Source of the DNA: Pyrinomonadaceae bacterium MAG19_C2-C3
GTDB lineage: Bacteria; Acidobacteriota; Blastocatellia; Pyrinomonadales; Pyrinomonadaceae
Reading direction: 5' to 3'
Length of the DNA: 64,000 bases
NCBI GenBank assembly: GCA_024330265.1
Contig: JANDLT010000005.1
Span: forward strand, 1-64,000
Translations under genes and position numbers: made by a program
In this document: positions 16,441 through 28,281 of the stretch, in pieces
Position numbering within the stretch: the stretch's first letter is position 1
Layout of the letters: each line of letters opens with the position of its first letter
Notes under the pieces: model-generated
Told to the model about the DNA's origin: nothing
The model's database searches: none
Seen by the model: the letters and a program-made list of their open reading frames with translations, nothing else

Positions 16441-17259
16441 TTAAGGGCGAGTATTACGGTTGGCGGGCGAGGCGGTGGTTCGATTGTTGGGGTTGCGAGT
16501 ATTGGTGTTGCGGTTATTTGAATTGCGATTGTTGGCGTTCCGGTTGTTCGCGTTTGAAGTCGTGTTGCGGTTCGCGTTGTTGGCGTTTGAACGGTTCGCG
16601 TTATTCGTGTTGGCGTTCGCGCGGTTCGCATTGTTCGCCGCGTTGGTATTGGCGGCGTTGTTCGTCGCGTTGCCGTTATTGGCGTTGCGATTATCGTTCG
16701 TCGTATTGCCGTTATTAGAATTGTTCGCGTTATTCGCGTTATTGGAGTTACGCTTGTTGGCGTTCGTATTACGCGCGCGGTTGTTGGCGTTCGTGCGCGC
16801 CAGCACGGAAACGGCGCGATTATCGTTCGAGTTTTGACGGTTCGAGTTGACTGCCGAATTAGCTTCTTCGGCGACTTCGGCTTCGAGTTCGGCGGCTTCG
16901 AGTTCGGCTTGCGCGATGGCTTCTTCGCCTTCTCTCGCCTGCGTGCGGCTGACGACGACGGCGATAGTTTGTCCGGCTTTGACGGTTTCTCCGGCGCGCG
17001 GATTCTGGTCAAGAACCGTGTCCGCCTTCGCGTTCGGCGAATAGCGCGAAGCCCGCACGCGCATGTTTAACCCGGCTTGCTCAAGCGCGTCTTCGGCGGA
17101 AAAGCGGTCGTTGCCGACGACCTTCGGGACGTTAACTTCGGGGCTGCGAAGACTGTAATAGACCGCCCCGGCGACGCCCGCGACGAACAACATAGCACCG
17201 AGCGCGATGACTCCAAGCCGTCCGAGAGCGCGCATAATTCCTTGCGTGAATGATGCCAA
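16441..17259 (-). CDS. Membrane-anchored PASTA-domain protein with Asn-rich tail
   Basis: A 272-aa protein. One hydrophobic segment lies near residues 15-37 (LGVIALGAMLFVAGVAGAVY), and a single PASTA domain at about 42-108 (VPKVVGNDRFSAEDALEQAGL, VLDQNPRAGETVKAGQTIAVVVS). An Ala/Glu coiled stretch (109-133) follows. The last 140 residues are dominated by Asn with Arg, Thr, Ala and Ser, with no charged or hydrophobic core. PASTA domains usually bind peptidoglycan or muropeptides. There is no kinase domain. The predicted TTG start is uncertain; an ATG 8 codons later is possible. It is cotranscribed with rpe (24-bp gap). Confidence 0.85.
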   Translation of the reverse strand: MASFTQGIMRALGRLGVIALGAMLFVAGVAGAVYYSLRSPEVNVPKVVGNDRFSAEDALEQAGLNMRVRASRYSPNAKADTVLDQNPRAGETVKAGQTIAVVVSRTQAREGEEAIAQAELEAAELEAEVAEEANSAVNSNRQNSNDNRAVSVLARTNANNRARNTNANKRNSNNANNANNSNNGNTTNDNRNANNGNATNNAANTNAANNANRANANTNNANRSNANNANRNTTSNANNRNANNRNSNNRNTNTRNPNNRTTASPANRNTRP

Positions 17260-19818: not shown

Positions 19819-20076
19819 TTAGCCATCGTCCGGTTCATCGCTTGGTTTCAAACGTCGCTCGAACTTCAACAACTGATTTTCCAAACGCAACAACATCATG
19901 CCGCGCTCATGTTCGTCCTTATCGCGCACGGTATAAATCTCGTAACGCAATTGCTCAACTGCCAGCGTCAAATCTTTCATTGACTCTTGCAACTTTGCGA
20001 TGTCATTCGCGTTATGCTCTGTTTTATCCGTGAGCAAGATGACTTGCCGCATGACTTCAAAAAATCTTTTCCACAC
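19819..20076 (-). CDS. Small coiled-coil protein, family A (copy 1)
   Basis: An 85-aa protein with a GTG start (GTG TGG AAA AGA). The N-terminal amphipathic helix MWKRFFEVMRQVILL is followed by a continuous charged heptad coiled coil to about residue 75, including the strings YEIYTVRDKDEHERG and LLRLENQLLKFE. A paralog at 27769-28035 shares MWK, LxYEI, K(D/E)EHER and LL(K/Q)FE. It starts 5 bp after the stop of the family-B gene, suggesting translational coupling. Function is unknown. The aromatic amphipathic N-terminus could be a peripheral membrane or partner anchor (inference). Confidence 0.8.
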   Translation of the reverse strand: MWKRFFEVMRQVILLTDKTEHNANDIAKLQESMKDLTLAVEQLRYEIYTVRDKDEHERGMMLLRLENQLLKFERRLKPSDEPDDG

Positions 20077-20081
20077 GATAA

Positions 20082-20261
20082 TCAGGTTCTTTTCAGACGC
20101 GCCAAAACCGATTCTGTTTCATCGCGCAAGCGAGCAGTACGCTCTTGCGTCTCTCCGATACGCATCAATTTTTGACTTACTTCTTCGATGGCTTTAATGA
20201 CTTCGGCTTTGTAGTCAATCTTTTCTTCTTTCGGCGTTTCCAAAGTTATTGTCTTACTCAT
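20082..20261 (-). CDS. Small coiled-coil protein, family B (copy 2)
   Basis: A 59-aa protein starting at ATG 20261 (MSKTITLETPKEEKIDYKAE), with GGAG 9-10 nt upstream. An earlier in-frame ATG is less likely because it falls within the SD region. A short polar N-terminus with the IDYKA motif is followed by one long charged helix (IGETQERTARLRDETESVLARL). Two relatives lie in the window: 20287-20460 just upstream and 28043-28222. Family signature: (D/N)YK, then Q...RL..ET..(I/V)L.RL. It is cotranscribed with family A downstream. Function unknown. Confidence 0.8.
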   Translation of the reverse strand: MSKTITLETPKEEKIDYKAEVIKAIEEVSQKLMRIGETQERTARLRDETESVLARLKRT

Positions 20262-20286: not shown

Positions 20287-20460
20287 CTACTTCAATCGGT
20301 CAAGAATAACTTGCGTCTCGTCTTGCAGACGTTCTGTATTGTCCTGTGTTTCCGCAATCTCTTTATGTATCACGGTCATCTTTTCGATGTAATCGTTAAT
20401 CATCGCTTTATAATCAACCCGCTCATCTTTCGCCGAATCTATCGTGATTGTCTTACTCAT
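20287..20460 (-). CDS. Small coiled-coil protein, family B (copy 1)
   Basis: A 57-aa protein, ATG at 20460 with GAGG 8 nt upstream, stop TAG at 20287. The product begins MSKTITIDSAKDERVDYKAM and ends in the helix IAETQDNTERLQDETQ followed by VILDRLK. It is clearly paralogous to the next gene (identical MSKTIT start, YKA, ETQ..TERL.DET..(I/V)L.RLK), so the locus holds a tandem duplication, B-B-A. It lies 84 bp downstream of the P5C dehydrogenase gene. Function unknown. Confidence 0.78.
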   Translation of the reverse strand: MSKTITIDSAKDERVDYKAMINDYIEKMTVIHKEIAETQDNTERLQDETQVILDRLK

Positions 20461-20544
20461 AATTTTAACCTCATTAATTCTTTAACCGTGCGGTCAATCG
20501 CTTTCGTTATCTACGATTGACCGCACAACATAAACGCTCAACCA

Positions 20545-22158
20545 TCAAACGCCCGCGTCGCGTTGCGTTCCCTTCGTGTCGCCTTTGCGAACTTTTTCCG
20601 ACACCAGTTTCGCTTGCATAAACAAGCCCAAGTAATCGCGCCCGCCCGCTTTGGAATCCGTTCCCGACATGTTGAAGCCGCCGAACGGATGAACGCCGAC
20701 GAGTGCGCCCGTGCATTTACGATTGAGATATAGATTGCCGACGTGAAACTCGTCGCGTGCCTTCTCCAGATTCGCTTCGTCGTTCGTGTAAGCCGCGCCC
20801 GTCAAACCGAACTCGGTATCGTTGGCAATCTCAAGTGCGTGGTCAAAGTCCCGCGCTTTGATTACCGCCAACACGGGACCGAAAATCTCTTGCTGTTCAA
20901 TCGTACTTCCGGCTTCGACATCCGCGATGACCGTCGGTTGAATCACAAAGCCTTCGCTGTCATCCGCCGTTCCGCCCGCGACGACGCGCCCGCCTTCGCT
21001 CTTTCCCTTTTCGATAAACTCGGTGATTGATTTGAACGCTTTGCGGTTGATGACCGCGCTCATGTTCGTCTTCGCATCCGCCGGATTTCCGATGATGAGT
21101 TTCTGGGTTTTCTCGACGATTTTCCCAAGCAATTCATCGTAAATATCTTGGTGAATTATCGCGCGTGAACATGCCGAACACTTCTGACCGGAGAAGCCGA
21201 ACGCCGCCTGCACAATGCCCGTCGCGGCTTCTTCCAAATCGAAATCTTTATCTACGACAATCGCGTCCTTGCCGCCCATCTCCGCGACCACGCGCTTAAT
21301 CCAAATCTGACCTTCTTGTGTTTTCGCCGCGCGTTCATTCACACGAAGCCCGACTTCCTTCGACCCCGTGAAGGCGACGTAGCGTGTCAACTTGTGGTCA
21401 ACGAGAGTGTCACCGACTTCACCGCCCGCACCCGTCACGAAGTTGACGACCCCTTTAGACATTCCGGCTTCTTCCAGCAACTCGAAAAACTTTATCGCAA
21501 TCGTCGGCGCGTCGCTCGAAGGCTTCAAGACGACCGTGTTTCCGGTCACGACACCCGCGACCGTCATGCCCGCCATAATCGCCAGAGGAAAATTCCAAGG
21601 CGGCACGACGACTCCGACGCCGAGCGCGATATATTTCAGTTGATTCTCTTCGCCTTCGATTTTTGTGAGCGGTTGACCTTCCGCATAACGCAACATCTCG
21701 CGCCCGTAGAACTCAAGAAAATCAATCGCTTCCGCCGTGTCGCCGTCAGCTTCCGCCCACGTCTTGGCGACTTCATAAACCATCCATGCCGAAAACTCGT
21801 GCTTGCGTTCACGCATCAAGCCCGCCGTCTTAAACAACAATTCCGCGCGCTCATTCGCACTCGTTCTGCTCCATGTCTTGAAAGTTTCGTGCGCGGCTTC
21901 AATCGCCCGATTCGCCTGCGCCGCCGATGCTTTCTGAAAACGCCCGACAACCTGTTTATGATTCGCCGGATTAACCGACTCCATCACGCCGCTTTCGCCC
22001 CTGACGCGCTCGCCGTTAATAACTAATTCGTATTCGCGTCCCAACTCGCCTTCGACTTTTTTAAGCGCGTCTTCCATCGCACGCTTGTTTTCATCTTTAG
22101 TAAAATCCGTGAACGGTTCGTTTTTGAAGTCATCTGTTTTCTTTATTGTCGCTGACAT
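20545..22158 (-). CDS. rocA: L-glutamate gamma-semialdehyde (P5C) dehydrogenase
   Basis: Oxidises pyrroline-5-carboxylate/glutamate semialdehyde to glutamate with NAD, the second step of proline breakdown. It has 537 aa from ATG 22158, which carries a strong SD (AAGGAG, 7 nt). The longer upstream frame is rejected. ALDH features: PWNFPLAIMAGMTVAGVVTGN, VVLKPSSDAPTIA, FTGSKEVGL, catalytic Glu in AEMGGKDAIVVD and catalytic Cys in SGQKCSACSR. The C-terminus GGFNMSGTDSKAGGRDYLGLF matches the RocA/PutA-type group rather than generic ALDH. No proline dehydrogenase gene is adjacent. Confidence 0.92.
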   Translation of the reverse strand: MSATIKKTDDFKNEPFTDFTKDENKRAMEDALKKVEGELGREYELVINGERVRGESGVMESVNPANHKQVVGRFQKASAAQANRAIEAAHETFKTWSRTSANERAELLFKTAGLMRERKHEFSAWMVYEVAKTWAEADGDTAEAIDFLEFYGREMLRYAEGQPLTKIEGEENQLKYIALGVGVVVPPWNFPLAIMAGMTVAGVVTGNTVVLKPSSDAPTIAIKFFELLEEAGMSKGVVNFVTGAGGEVGDTLVDHKLTRYVAFTGSKEVGLRVNERAAKTQEGQIWIKRVVAEMGGKDAIVVDKDFDLEEAATGIVQAAFGFSGQKCSACSRAIIHQDIYDELLGKIVEKTQKLIIGNPADAKTNMSAVINRKAFKSITEFIEKGKSEGGRVVAGGTADDSEGFVIQPTVIADVEAGSTIEQQEIFGPVLAVIKARDFDHALEIANDTEFGLTGAAYTNDEANLEKARDEFHVGNLYLNRKCTGALVGVHPFGGFNMSGTDSKAGGRDYLGLFMQAKLVSEKVRKGDTKGTQRDAGV

Positions 22159-22249: not shown

Positions 22250-23293
22250 TCATAAAGCTTGCAAACGCACGCATCTGTCTTCGTTGTACTTTCCCGCTTC
22301 GGTGAACAAAGGTTGGTTGTAGATGCGCGTCGCCGTAGCATTGCCCCTCATATTCGCTTCGAGCGCGGCGGCTCGTTTCGCCAGTGAATGTTCGCGCTCC
22401 AATCTCCACTTTGAAAGCAAATCGAGATACGCGACGGAATCAATCTTCAAGTTTTCCACTTCATTTATAAACTCGAAGTCATCGAGAAAATTCACCATCG
22501 CAATCGCGTTGATAATCTCCAAAATCATCTCCATCGTCCGCTCGCTGCCAGCCAGAAAATCCCACAACTCCGCCGCTAAAAGAAACTCATCCGGCGCGAT
22601 GTACTTGCGAAAGTCCACGCTGTATCGCGCGAAGCGTACCTTGTCATAACCCGTCGGCGTCACGCTCAAAGGGTCGAACGGAAACCCCAAATAGTACCGG
22701 ATTTCCTTGTTCGGATACTTGTTTCGCAAAGCGGCTTTCGCTTCCAGCATCTTGTCCTTTTCATACTTGAAAACACCTTTGTTCGGCTTCACGGTTTTCA
22801 GTTCGAGACACACGATTTGCCCCGCGTCCTGATAGAAAACATCGGCGGTGAAATCCGTCGCCGCGATTGTTTCCACATCATCACCGACAAATATCAATTC
22901 ATTTTCCGCATCAACATTCGGCTGACGCACACCGTTTGACAACTCCGTGACGATAGTTGATACCGCGCGCTTCTGGCTTGGCGAAAGTTTTAATGTCGCG
23001 GTTCTTCTGGTTGTAAATTCCTTTTTCGCTCCATCGCAAAGAATGTGCGCGACGTTCTCAAAAAAGTTTTGTCCGAGCGTCGTGCTTAATCCATGCGCCC
23101 AACTGCTCAAACTGATAAAGAACGGGATTGATAAAACTTTACCCGTGAGTTTGTCAGCGAACGCGCCGAGAAACGCTTGATGAAACGGAGCATTGCGGCT
23201 TTGTGCCAAGTCATCTGGAAAACTGTCAAAGCGCGACTTTAGAACCTTAATGACTTCGAGCGCGATTTTTTCTTGCTTTAACGTGTCAATCAC
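22250..23293 (-). CDS. Type II restriction endonuclease, TdeIII-like
   Basis: A 347-aa putative restriction enzyme. A PD-(D/E)xK-like core is visible: TDFTADVFYQDAGQIVCLEL followed by KTVKPNKG, where Asp and the ELK triad are spaced as in such nucleases. This region, the following KDKMLEAKAALRNKYP and YYLGFPFDP resemble the TdeIII family as I recall it. Recognition site unknown. The start overlaps the end of the methyltransferase gene by 8 bp, so R is translated after M, the usual safe order. Base composition is more A/T-rich than neighbouring housekeeping genes, suggesting transfer. Confidence 0.8.
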   Translation of the reverse strand: MIDTLKQEKIALEVIKVLKSRFDSFPDDLAQSRNAPFHQAFLGAFADKLTGKVLSIPFFISLSSWAHGLSTTLGQNFFENVAHILCDGAKKEFTTRRTATLKLSPSQKRAVSTIVTELSNGVRQPNVDAENELIFVGDDVETIAATDFTADVFYQDAGQIVCLELKTVKPNKGVFKYEKDKMLEAKAALRNKYPNKEIRYYLGFPFDPLSVTPTGYDKVRFARYSVDFRKYIAPDEFLLAAELWDFLAGSERTMEMILEIINAIAMVNFLDDFEFINEVENLKIDSVAYLDLLSKWRLEREHSLAKRAAALEANMRGNATATRIYNQPLFTEAGKYNEDRCVRLQAL

Positions 23294-24872
23294 TATCTTT
23301 TGCCTTGAGATGGAAAATGGTTTCCGAATACGCGCCTTTATCTTTTTCCGTTCGATTCAAGACCGGACGCTTGAATCGTTTGTGGATTTTTAACCGCGCG
23401 GCTTCGGCAATCTGTGGATAAAGATTGTATTTGTCATTTGCGACGAGAAAGATATTAAAATCATCGGCAAGATATTTACGGCAGTTGCTCAATACACGCG
23501 AAACGCCTTGTGCATATTCTTGTTGGGCTTGCTTGCCTTGCCCTTTTCGCATCGCTCCGATTTCTTGCCCGTCATGCCGCTCAAAGCCGAACAAGTCATA
23601 AGCGTAGGCGTGCTGTTCATGGTAATCAATCAAACCAACATAAGGCGGACTTGAAAAGATGCCTTTGATTTTTCGTTGCGCCACGATTTCAGCCAAGCGC
23701 GGACTGCGTTTTTCCAGTTCAGATTGTAAGTCTATTGACTCGGAATTACCGTTCAAACAAATCTGTTGGGCTTCGGTTTTCAGTCGTGCGAAGTGCGCGA
23801 GACGTTGCAAACTATCTTTGCTGTAACGCTCCCACCAAGACAAAATCGAAAACAACGGCTTGCATATTTTGCCGTGCTTCGCGCAGTAGTAAGGTTTGGT
23901 TATCGGCTCAACAAGCGTCGCTAAATCGGCGTGCGTCGTCGCCCGACAACTGCGAATCGTGCGGCTTAAAATCACCGCCAAGACTTTTTTTGTGCGCTTG
24001 TTTTGAACCTTTTTAATTTGCTCAAACGCGAAGTCAATTTCTTGTCTGACCGATTGCAAATACCACTTTGTCAAAAACCTTGCATCTCGTGGTTGCGTGA
24101 TTTGGATTTGAAACTCTTCAGCTAATCGCTCGAAAGTCGGTAAAAACTCTTGCTCTTTTTCAGCCGCATAGGTTCTTTCGTCAATCTCTTTTAGTCGCGC
24201 CTTTATCTTAAACTCCGGCGAAGGAAAAAATTGATTGTTGTAGATGTTTAGTTCTTCAACCAATTCGCGCTCGAAGCTGATGTATTTTGAATCAACGACA
24301 AACGCCCGCAGAGCTTCCGTAATTGTTTTGATTTGCGTGTGTAAATCATATAAGTCAACGCTCTGAATTTTCACGTTTGAAATCAATGCGTTGAAAGCGG
24401 AAACGTCTATGCCAACGGCGTGCAAACCCATTTCGGCGGCTTGCACTAAAGTTGTTCCGCTACCGCAAAAAGGGTCAAGCACAACATCGCCGCGCTGAAA
24501 AAAGGCTTCGGTTTTGAAATCGTCCGTGCGTCCGTCTAAGAAATACTCGACTAACTGCGGAATGAATTTTCCCTTGTATGGATGCAATCGGTGAACATGC
24601 TTCGTCGTCTCTGCTTCTTTCAAATTTTCAAACGCTAAAGCCCAATTCAGGTCATCGCCAAGCTGCCTTTTCCAGTCAATTTCGCGGCTGCCATAATATG
24701 ACTTGTAGTAGTCCGTAAGTTCTTGTTCATCAACGAAGGTTGCGCCGTTGTCACCGCGCTTGCTGATTCTCCCGTAGCTAATCAGATATGCGATGTTGGA
24801 AGCCGTGACGTTTCTATTAACGTAACGGCTCGCAAATTCGCTCGCCTCTTTTATGGTTAATAATCTTGCCAT
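23286..24872 (-). CDS. Type II DNA methyltransferase (N4-cytosine or N6-adenine)
   Basis: A 528-aa amino-methyltransferase. An N-terminal helix-turn-helix-like region (LLTIKEASEFASRY to GATFVDEQELTDYY, residues 5-55) probably reads DNA. The SAM motif DPFCGSGTTLVQA lies at about 133-145, and the catalytic motif SSPPYVGLIDY at about 410. The Ser-Pro-Pro-Tyr form favours N4-cytosine methylation. About 260 residues between the motifs likely hold the target-recognition domain. The SAM motif comes before the catalytic motif. It overlaps the restriction gene by 8 bp and follows the acidic small gene by 30 bp. Confidence 0.9.
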   Translation of the reverse strand: MARLLTIKEASEFASRYVNRNVTASNIAYLISYGRISKRGDNGATFVDEQELTDYYKSYYGSREIDWKRQLGDDLNWALAFENLKEAETTKHVHRLHPYKGKFIPQLVEYFLDGRTDDFKTEAFFQRGDVVLDPFCGSGTTLVQAAEMGLHAVGIDVSAFNALISNVKIQSVDLYDLHTQIKTITEALRAFVVDSKYISFERELVEELNIYNNQFFPSPEFKIKARLKEIDERTYAAEKEQEFLPTFERLAEEFQIQITQPRDARFLTKWYLQSVRQEIDFAFEQIKKVQNKRTKKVLAVILSRTIRSCRATTHADLATLVEPITKPYYCAKHGKICKPLFSILSWWERYSKDSLQRLAHFARLKTEAQQICLNGNSESIDLQSELEKRSPRLAEIVAQRKIKGIFSSPPYVGLIDYHEQHAYAYDLFGFERHDGQEIGAMRKGQGKQAQQEYAQGVSRVLSNCRKYLADDFNIFLVANDKYNLYPQIAEAARLKIHKRFKRPVLNRTEKDKGAYSETIFHLKAKDSD

Positions 24873-24902: not shown

Positions 24903-25232
24903 TCATGAGACATTCTTGTCTTTAGTTTCCTCATCCGTTTCTTCATCCTCACCGTCTTCTACTTCCTCATCATCTTCACCGTCTTCAAAGTCGTCATCAT
25001 CGTCATCTTCGCTCTCCTCCTGTACTTCCAAGTCTAGGTGGTAGCTGATGGCAAACTCTATTGCTTCACCCCAATTGACGCCATCAGGGAATTTGTCTTC
25101 TACAATCACGATTTCTTCATCGGTAAGCTCACGCCCGAATCTTTCTATCGCAATGTTTTGAATATCTTCGACCATAATCCTATAAACTACACGTTCCCAA
25201 TCACCGATAGCTTTATCTTCCGTGTCTTCCAT
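24903..25232 (-). CDS. Small acidic protein upstream of the restriction-modification genes
   Basis: A 109-aa protein. Residues 1-70 look folded (DWERVVYRIMVEDIQNIAIE, RELTDEEIVIVEDKFPDGVNW, GEAIEFAISYHL). Residues 72-109 are almost all Asp/Glu with a Lys-rich end. No family is recognised. It lies 30 bp upstream of the methyltransferase gene, same strand, so probably same transcript. The acidic tail could mimic DNA or act as a regulator of the RM pair, but that is speculation. It could equally be an unrelated low-complexity protein. Confidence 0.75.
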   Translation of the reverse strand: MEDTEDKAIGDWERVVYRIMVEDIQNIAIERFGRELTDEEIVIVEDKFPDGVNWGEAIEFAISYHLDLEVQEESEDDDDDDFEDGEDDEEVEDGEDEETDEETKDKNVS

Positions 25233-27631: not shown

Positions 27632-27657
27632 GTTTCAGTTCCATTTTCAACTTATTC

Positions 27658-27699
27658 AAAAAGAGAGGCGATGAAATCATTCATCGCCTCTCTCTTTTT
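27658..27699. terminator. Bidirectional intrinsic terminator
   Basis: Perfect 12-bp stem (GAGAGGCGATGA, 27663-27674, with 27681-27692) flanked by an A run on the left and TCTTTTT on the right. It can terminate the plus-strand ATPase transcript and the opposing minus-strand one. Confidence 0.85.
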
Positions 27700-27768
27700 G
27701 GGGTTGTAAGCTGTCGCTGAAGTCCCGACACCGAAGCAATTTTCAAACTGCAGATGCACCATCAATGG

Positions 27769-28035
27769 TTAATTTCCGTTTGATTCTTTGTCCACATTAC
27801 GCGCCAATAAAAGTTTTTCAAACTGCAATAATCGGGTTTCCGACAGTAACCCAAGCTTTTCGCGTTCGTGTTCTTCTTTCTCGCTGATGCGGTGAATCTC
27901 GTATGCCAATCGCTCAAGTGCTGATGCTAATCTACGCACTTCCTCGCGTAGTTCTTTGTTCTCTTCACGATTACGTTTCGTGTCTTCAGCCAGCATCAAC
28001 AATCGCTTTGCCATATCAAGGATTTGTTTCCACAT
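27769..28035 (-). CDS. Small coiled-coil protein, family A (copy 2)
   Basis: An 88-aa protein, ATG start (MWKQILDMAKRLLMLAEDTK). It is a paralog of the gene at 19819-20076, with the same amphipathic N-terminus and heptad coiled coil, sharing N...ELR.E, A(L/V)ERLxYEI, EKEEHERE and LLQFEK. No catalytic motif. It starts 7 bp after the family-B gene stop, the same order and spacing as copy 1, so the B-A pair is a conserved unit. It lies 3' of a bidirectional terminator shared with the Clp-type ATPase. Function unknown. Confidence 0.82.
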   Translation of the reverse strand: MWKQILDMAKRLLMLAEDTKRNREENKELREEVRRLASALERLAYEIHRISEKEEHEREKLGLLSETRLLQFEKLLLARNVDKESNGN

Positions 28036-28042
28036 ACCATGT

Positions 28043-28222
28043 TTAAGCGGCTTCGAGCCTCTCTAAAATTTCTCTCGTCTCCGCTTTCAAACGGTCAATT
28101 TCTTTTTGGTCTTCCGCCATCTGCTGTCTGACGACATCAAATTTTTTGATGCACTCGACAACGGATGTTTTGTAATTGATACGATTTTCAGCCGTCGGTT
28201 CAAATGTTGTTACGTCGTTCAT
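28043..28222 (-). CDS. Small coiled-coil protein, family B (copy 3)
   Basis: A 59-aa protein from ATG 28222 with a strong SD (GAGGAGG, 6 nt), which decides against the ATG 27 bp upstream. The product begins MNDVTTFEPTAENRINYKTS and ends in the helix DQKEIDRLKAETREILERLE. It is related to the two family-B genes at 20.1-20.5 kb through (D/N)YK and RL..ET..(I/V)L.RL. It is translated just before family A copy 2. It lies 60 bp downstream of the HEAT-repeat gene. Confidence 0.82.
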   Translation of the reverse strand: MNDVTTFEPTAENRINYKTSVVECIKKFDVVRQQMAEDQKEIDRLKAETREILERLEAA

Positions 28223-28281
28223 GTTTTGCCTCCTCGTGCAGTTTAGCACCGTCTTTCAATCCAGCCCGTTTAATCAAAGTT

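Follow-up and report, generated by a model that had tools for sequence, protein, structure and literature searches.

A recurrent pair of small coiled-coil genes in Pyrinomonadaceae and other bacteria, possibly a toxin–antitoxin-like module

Two small adjacent genes, here termed B and A, occur twice in the window analysed (64,000 nucleotides of a Pyrinomonadaceae genome) and belong to a scattered family of gene pairs with constant order and tight spacing. The two genes are under selection and diverge together, the pairs have been inserted laterally, and A decays more often than B. The reading that we favour, with a probability of roughly 40%, is that of a toxin–antitoxin (TA)-like module in which B would be the antitoxin and A the toxin, a coiled-coil protein whose N-terminal helix is amphipathic. 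Membership of the TA class is not claimed, since the pair matches no known family and its defining activities, toxicity of A and neutralisation by B, are putative.

The two copies in the window

The first copy has a B-B-A arrangement (B2-B1-A1, 20460–19819, minus strand), and the second consists of B3 and A2. The features concerned are as follows.

19819–20076, minus strand: A1, 85 aa, homologue of A2, GTG start
20082–20261, minus strand: B1, 59 aa, homologous to B3 and located 5 nt ahead of A1
20287–20460, minus strand: B2, a second B gene upstream of B1
20461–20545, minus strand: strong hairpin between the stop codon of the aldehyde dehydrogenase gene and B2 (−29.5 kcal/mol, z −5.4), which may be a terminator or another element
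27655–27703, no strand assigned: inverted repeat AAAAGAGAGGCGATGAA...TTCATCGCCTCTCTTTT, read by eye, between the convergent A2 and ClpX-like genes; likely a transcription terminator common to both
27769–28035, minus strand: A2, 88 aa
28043–28222, minus strand: B3, 59 aa, upstream partner of A2 across a 7-nt gap
28223–28241, minus strand: region of the strong ribosome-binding site of B3, with GAGGAGGCAAAAC ahead of the ATG

An earlier note on this DNA had proposed both reading frames of the second copy and their kinship to the copy about 8 kb away, and both proved real. In BLASTP comparisons, A1 and A2 were 32% identical (E 1e-15), B1 and B3 likewise 32% (E 5e-9), and B1 and B2 49% (E 5e-18). 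With A2 as sole query, a search of the genome retrieved A1 (E 9e-12) as well as another, third copy (E 3e-16). The conserved blocks that had been named (YEI, EHER and LL[KQ]FE in A; RL..ET..[IV]L.RL in B) were found, as was the strong Shine-Dalgarno sequence of the B gene (GAGGAGG before B3). The 7-bp spacing given for both copies applies to B3–A2 only, B1 and A1 being 5 nt apart.

Other elements on the minus strand of the window include a type II restriction-modification (R-M) pair (22250–24872; TdeIII-like endonuclease, PF09520, and N6/N4 methylase, PF01555) that is flanked by def and the aldehyde dehydrogenase gene; B2-B1-A1 lies about 2 kb downstream of it. A small protein with a long C-terminal run of Asp/Glu and no Pfam match is encoded at 24903–25232, and a protein in which PASTA-like repeats precede a low-complexity tail very rich in asparagine at 16441–17259.

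Predicted structure and family searches

AlphaFold2 models of the single chains, each built on a 36-row alignment, predicted A2 as one unbroken helix (residues 2–86, mean pLDDT 94) and B3 as a helix spanning residues 11–58 (mean pLDDT 89). As the models are of single chains, a mixed A:B coiled coil is hypothetical. The N-terminal amphipathic segment of A2 is MWKQILDMAKRLLMLA and its C-terminal motif EHEREKLGLLSETRLLQFEKLL, while the C-terminal block of B3 is RLKAETREILERL. The first 18 residues of A were clearly more hydrophobic and amphipathic than the remaining part (mean H 0.09 vs −0.36, moment 0.51 vs 0.35); A showed this amphipathic N-terminus but no transmembrane stretch. Conserved positions were mostly coil-type hydrophobic and charged residues, none of them enzyme-like.

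Searches of Pfam and NCBIfam gave no match that passed the cut-off, and PHROGs, PADLOC and the PDB returned just weak matches of coiled-coil type, which speaks against a known protein family in these collections; in the PDB, A resembled designed and natural coiled coils only, via its repeats. No account of such a coiled-coil gene pair was found in the literature.

Distribution

A search with A2, followed by a six-sequence profile, revealed seven B-A loci in the 4.8-Mb genome (window 19.8–20.5 kb, window 28 kb, C79:100.5k, C25:8.2k, C102:21.7k, C1:128k and C22:1.5–2k). A is frameshifted in the last of these, leaving six full copies, and two further A fragments were located on C14 and C35. This genome-wide count, which the earlier note had suggested, also showed that the neighbours differ between loci and that B precedes A in all seven. 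At the C1 locus (L007, 127–129k), the pair comes after genes for a HigB toxin (PF09907) and a small HigA-like protein, and a 51-bp direct repeat flanks it.

Within the class, A was present in 30 of 162 genomes, and an even sample of the phylum gave any match in just 10 of 396, three of these being weak and probably coiled-coil noise. A scan of named-species genomes with a tight A alignment, which relied on two peptide patterns and may thus have missed further phyla, yielded 23 loci in Acidobacteriota, Armatimonadota and Verrucomicrobiota, with 5–6 matches each in several of these genomes. The pair is also encoded in L023 (genome G004, of the same family) and in the Pyrinomonadaceae record JACCRA01. 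Plasmids, phages and IMG/VR viral contigs contained no B-A match, which speaks against a phage or plasmid origin, though these collections probably hold few elements of the hosts in question.

Pairing, translation and selection

Across the three phyla, every intact A gene in the non-redundant set (56/56) had a B gene directly upstream, a constant order of two small genes as in an operon. The spacing from B to A ranged from −50 to +13 nt: 36 loci had a gap of 0–13 nt or a 1-nt overlap, 14 an overlap of exactly 20 nt, and six other overlaps. In the 20-nt class, the start of A (ATGTGGAA...) doubles as the code for the VE.. end of B. A Shine-Dalgarno match of at least 4 nt preceded B in 48 of the 56 loci compared to 29 for A (Wilcoxon p 4e-6), and the gene upstream of the pair was mostly on the same strand. 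Since A follows B at such short distances or within B itself, mostly with a weaker ribosome-binding site, its translation probably depends on that of B.

The distance matrices of A and B were correlated (Mantel r 0.66, falling to 0.48 once reduced to 21 non-redundant pairs; p 1e-4), with no significant correlation within the six copies of this genome. For closely related pairs, dN/dS was 0.07–0.32 in A and mostly 0.07–0.25 in B, with one B value of 0.64, many pairs being saturated at synonymous sites. Judged by these ratios, both proteins are under strong purifying selection, in agreement with what had been read from the conserved blocks. The lengths of A and B did not co-vary (Spearman 0.07 across 56 loci, not significant), and the idea of length-matched coils was dropped. 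The proposal that A and B form a unit is supported by their invariable pairing, co-varying distances and selection; the ground originally given for it, independent duplication of the pair, did not hold, as detailed below.

Insertion instead of duplication

This genome's six full copies were scattered over the A tree, and a constraint to a single clade was disfavoured (p-AU 0.03); for the two window copies alone the result was compatible with either arrangement (p-AU 0.35). The window sites were found empty in relatives. At the first, the aldehyde dehydrogenase gene and fmt lie about 80–230 nt apart with no B-A pair between them in six relatives (L174–L177, L181, L185), and at the second, eight relatives (L197, L199–L203, L217, L218) have only about 70–190 nt, again with no pair, between the ClpX-like gene and the HEAT-repeat gene. 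Some of these relatives hold pairs elsewhere (G004, G014). The tree and the empty sites speak against a recent duplication within this genome, and the simplest reading of both window pairs is insertion in its lineage, with repeated loss as a less simple alternative.

Direct repeats of 49–132 bp, 82–98% identical, were found on both sides of the pair in 10 of 73 loci, though not around the two window pairs. A control on random positions of the same geometry in the same sequences gave nine hits in 600 draws; hits above 40 bp fell solely in L068, which duplicates the repeat-bearing locus L023 and had not been masked, and the rest were 18–29 bp or also in L068. Background repetition was discarded as an explanation on this control, which was not matched for position relative to gene ends. 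In the most legible cases, the repeats were two slightly different versions of the 3' end of a neighbouring gene. In L023, the beta-CASP nuclease gene ahead of B ends in RYAESVELE, and another version of this end, RYGETVELD, follows A; L033 has the repeated ends LKKAGS and LKKTGSSTE; and L080 has an aspartyl-tRNA synthetase end plus a frameshifted remnant. L053 (G254 C16) is a tandem of two strongly diverged B-A pairs, with a MTA phosphorylase end (GKYAS) before the first and a decayed version of that 3' end (GKYSKK) between the two, before the second.

Most repeat-flanked loci contain little except B and A between the repeats. No recombinase was found among the scanned neighbours, and these loci do not point to an autonomous transposon or integrative element, which would carry its own recombinase or conserved terminal sequences. 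Nine-mers shared by the flanks were set aside because orthologous loci were still in the set. The neighbours are differing, mostly housekeeping genes, and no functional neighbour is constant except at the MTA phosphorylase locus, which is common to one genus. Taken together, the scattered copies, empty sites and flanking repeats indicate that pairs arrive by lateral insertion. The repeats would fit additive recombination: an incoming fragment would bring B-A along with a putatively foreign version of the gene end, and the end native to the recipient would remain as the other copy. A comparable route, homology-facilitated illegitimate recombination, has been proposed for effector–immunity pairs of the Vibrio type VI secretion system (T6SS) (PMC5361080).

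Decay asymmetry

Where both genes could be recognised, 14 loci had an A disrupted by a frameshift, an in-frame stop or truncation beside an open B (L008, L035, L039, L069, L085, L086, L107, the second copy of L151, L158, L160, L165, L168, L169 and L252). The reverse, an intact A with a truncated B, occurred once (L172, in a genome that holds other copies), and both genes were broken at two loci (L030, L156). Solo genes, which the earlier note had regarded as evidence against a joint role if widespread, were one-sided: A was never intact without any B, while eight B genes stood without A (L110, at C2:117k of this genome, and L094, L095, L227, L238, L242, L247 and L249). B is thus open without a working A at 22 loci. 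From these counts, the chance of at least 14 of 15 breaks falling in A is about 0.003, A making up about 58% of the two-gene length; the classification was made partly by eye, and some apparent breaks in A may be assembly errors.

Two loci show further rearrangements. L166 (G513 C227) is a single open reading frame that joins the beginning of B in frame to the latter half of A, apparently as the result of a deletion. L151 (G514 C1) contains two B-A loci about 1.4 kb apart, one intact and the other with an A gene that has lost its N-terminal part.

Possible functions of the pair

In the TA-like reading, B would be translated first, from its better ribosome-binding site, and A by coupling to it. 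The N-terminal amphipathic helix of the long single-helix A would probably be the harmful part, acting by binding to a target such as the inner membrane, and B would keep A harmless within a mixed coiled coil. The module would enter by recombination adjacent to housekeeping 3' ends, at times with a gene end left in duplicate, and A would seldom be retained after loss of B. The strict order and tight spacing or overlap, the stronger Shine-Dalgarno sequence of B, the patchy multi-copy presence in three phyla beside differing neighbours, the lateral insertion, the tandem extra B in the window and the N-terminus of A all agree with this, as does the decay bias of 14 broken A genes and eight solo B genes against one intact A with a truncated B. 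Moreover, two copies in the genome adjoin small TA-like genes (HigB_toxin, PF09907, at C1; DUF4258 at C102). On the other side stand the lack of similarity to known toxins or antitoxins, the intact A in L172 and the absence of length co-variation that would support length-matched coils. TA modules are usually frequent on plasmids and phages, yet the collections searched held no such copy. The decay bias also has a simpler explanation, as A is the longer target and a break in the upstream B would silence A, so that loci with a broken B and an intact A would be short-lived anyway. A hitchhiking accessory module of this kind, whose function is unrelated to toxicity and in which a dispensable A decays first while B lingers thanks to its better site, accords with the short gaps and 20-nt overlap, the mostly weaker sites of A and the usually co-directional upstream neighbour. 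It appears improbable, and an open B at 22 loci would be unexpected if B merely served A.

It is also conceivable, and only somewhat less likely than the TA-like reading, that A and B are subunits of a harmless structural or scaffolding coiled coil, for instance a membrane tether or localisation factor exchanged between strains as an accessory, with the amphipathic N-terminus bringing A to the membrane and B completing the bundle. The prediction of each protein as a single long helix, the strong purifying selection and co-divergence, the lack of enzyme-like conserved residues and the PDB resemblance to coiled coils only would suit such a scaffold. By itself, however, it does not predict solo B genes, the 14-to-1 bias in decay, or genomes with several diverged copies beside unrelated genes. 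An effector–immunity or phage-defence pair, in which A hits an invader or competitor and B shields the owner, is highly improbable: patchy, multi-copy, laterally exchanged pairs with a retained B do resemble effector–immunity arrays (PMC5361080), and one copy lies near the R-M system of the window and another adjoins a BglII-like nuclease, but no export gene or defence partner was recognised beside the pairs, PADLOC gave no convincing match, and the neighbours are mostly housekeeping genes.

Comparison with known systems and implications

Like type II TA systems, B-A consists of two small adjacent or overlapping genes, the upstream one better translated, with patchy, multi-copy occurrence, lateral spread and solo or tandem extra upstream partners. 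Unlike them, it matches no known toxin or antitoxin family, and is predicted to form single helices and no catalytic fold, its toxicity and neutralisation being putative. SpoIISA/SpoIISB comprises a membrane toxin and a small protein antitoxin, and the proposed B-A module would share with it a membrane-acting part restrained by a small protein partner; A, however, has an amphipathic N-terminus instead of a transmembrane stretch, and no sequence similarity was found. In the Vibrio T6SS, effector–immunity pairs were added stepwise at a conserved anchor gene (PMC5361080). There, as in B-A, diverged modules were added beside conserved upstream sequence and older protective genes were kept, and the proposed recombination is anchored at a homologous flank with an illegitimate second end (PMC5361080). 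B-A differs in using several unrelated housekeeping genes as anchors and in leaving the extra anchor 3' end as a 49–132 bp direct repeat.

We put forward only tentatively, as rather unlikely, that B-A is a new kind of TA system, with bare coiled-coil partners in one helical bundle and a recombinase-free spread by additive recombination at many housekeeping 3' ends that leaves a gene-end scar. If B-A is a TA pair, it would add a class that relies on nothing but coiled-coil exchange for both toxicity and its control. Its hosts belong to phyla (Acidobacteriota, Armatimonadota and Verrucomicrobiota) whose small mobile modules have hardly been studied. The gene-end scars are readable traces of how a small unit that encodes neither a transposase nor an integrase can get into chromosomes, and they make the mechanism of insertion directly testable.
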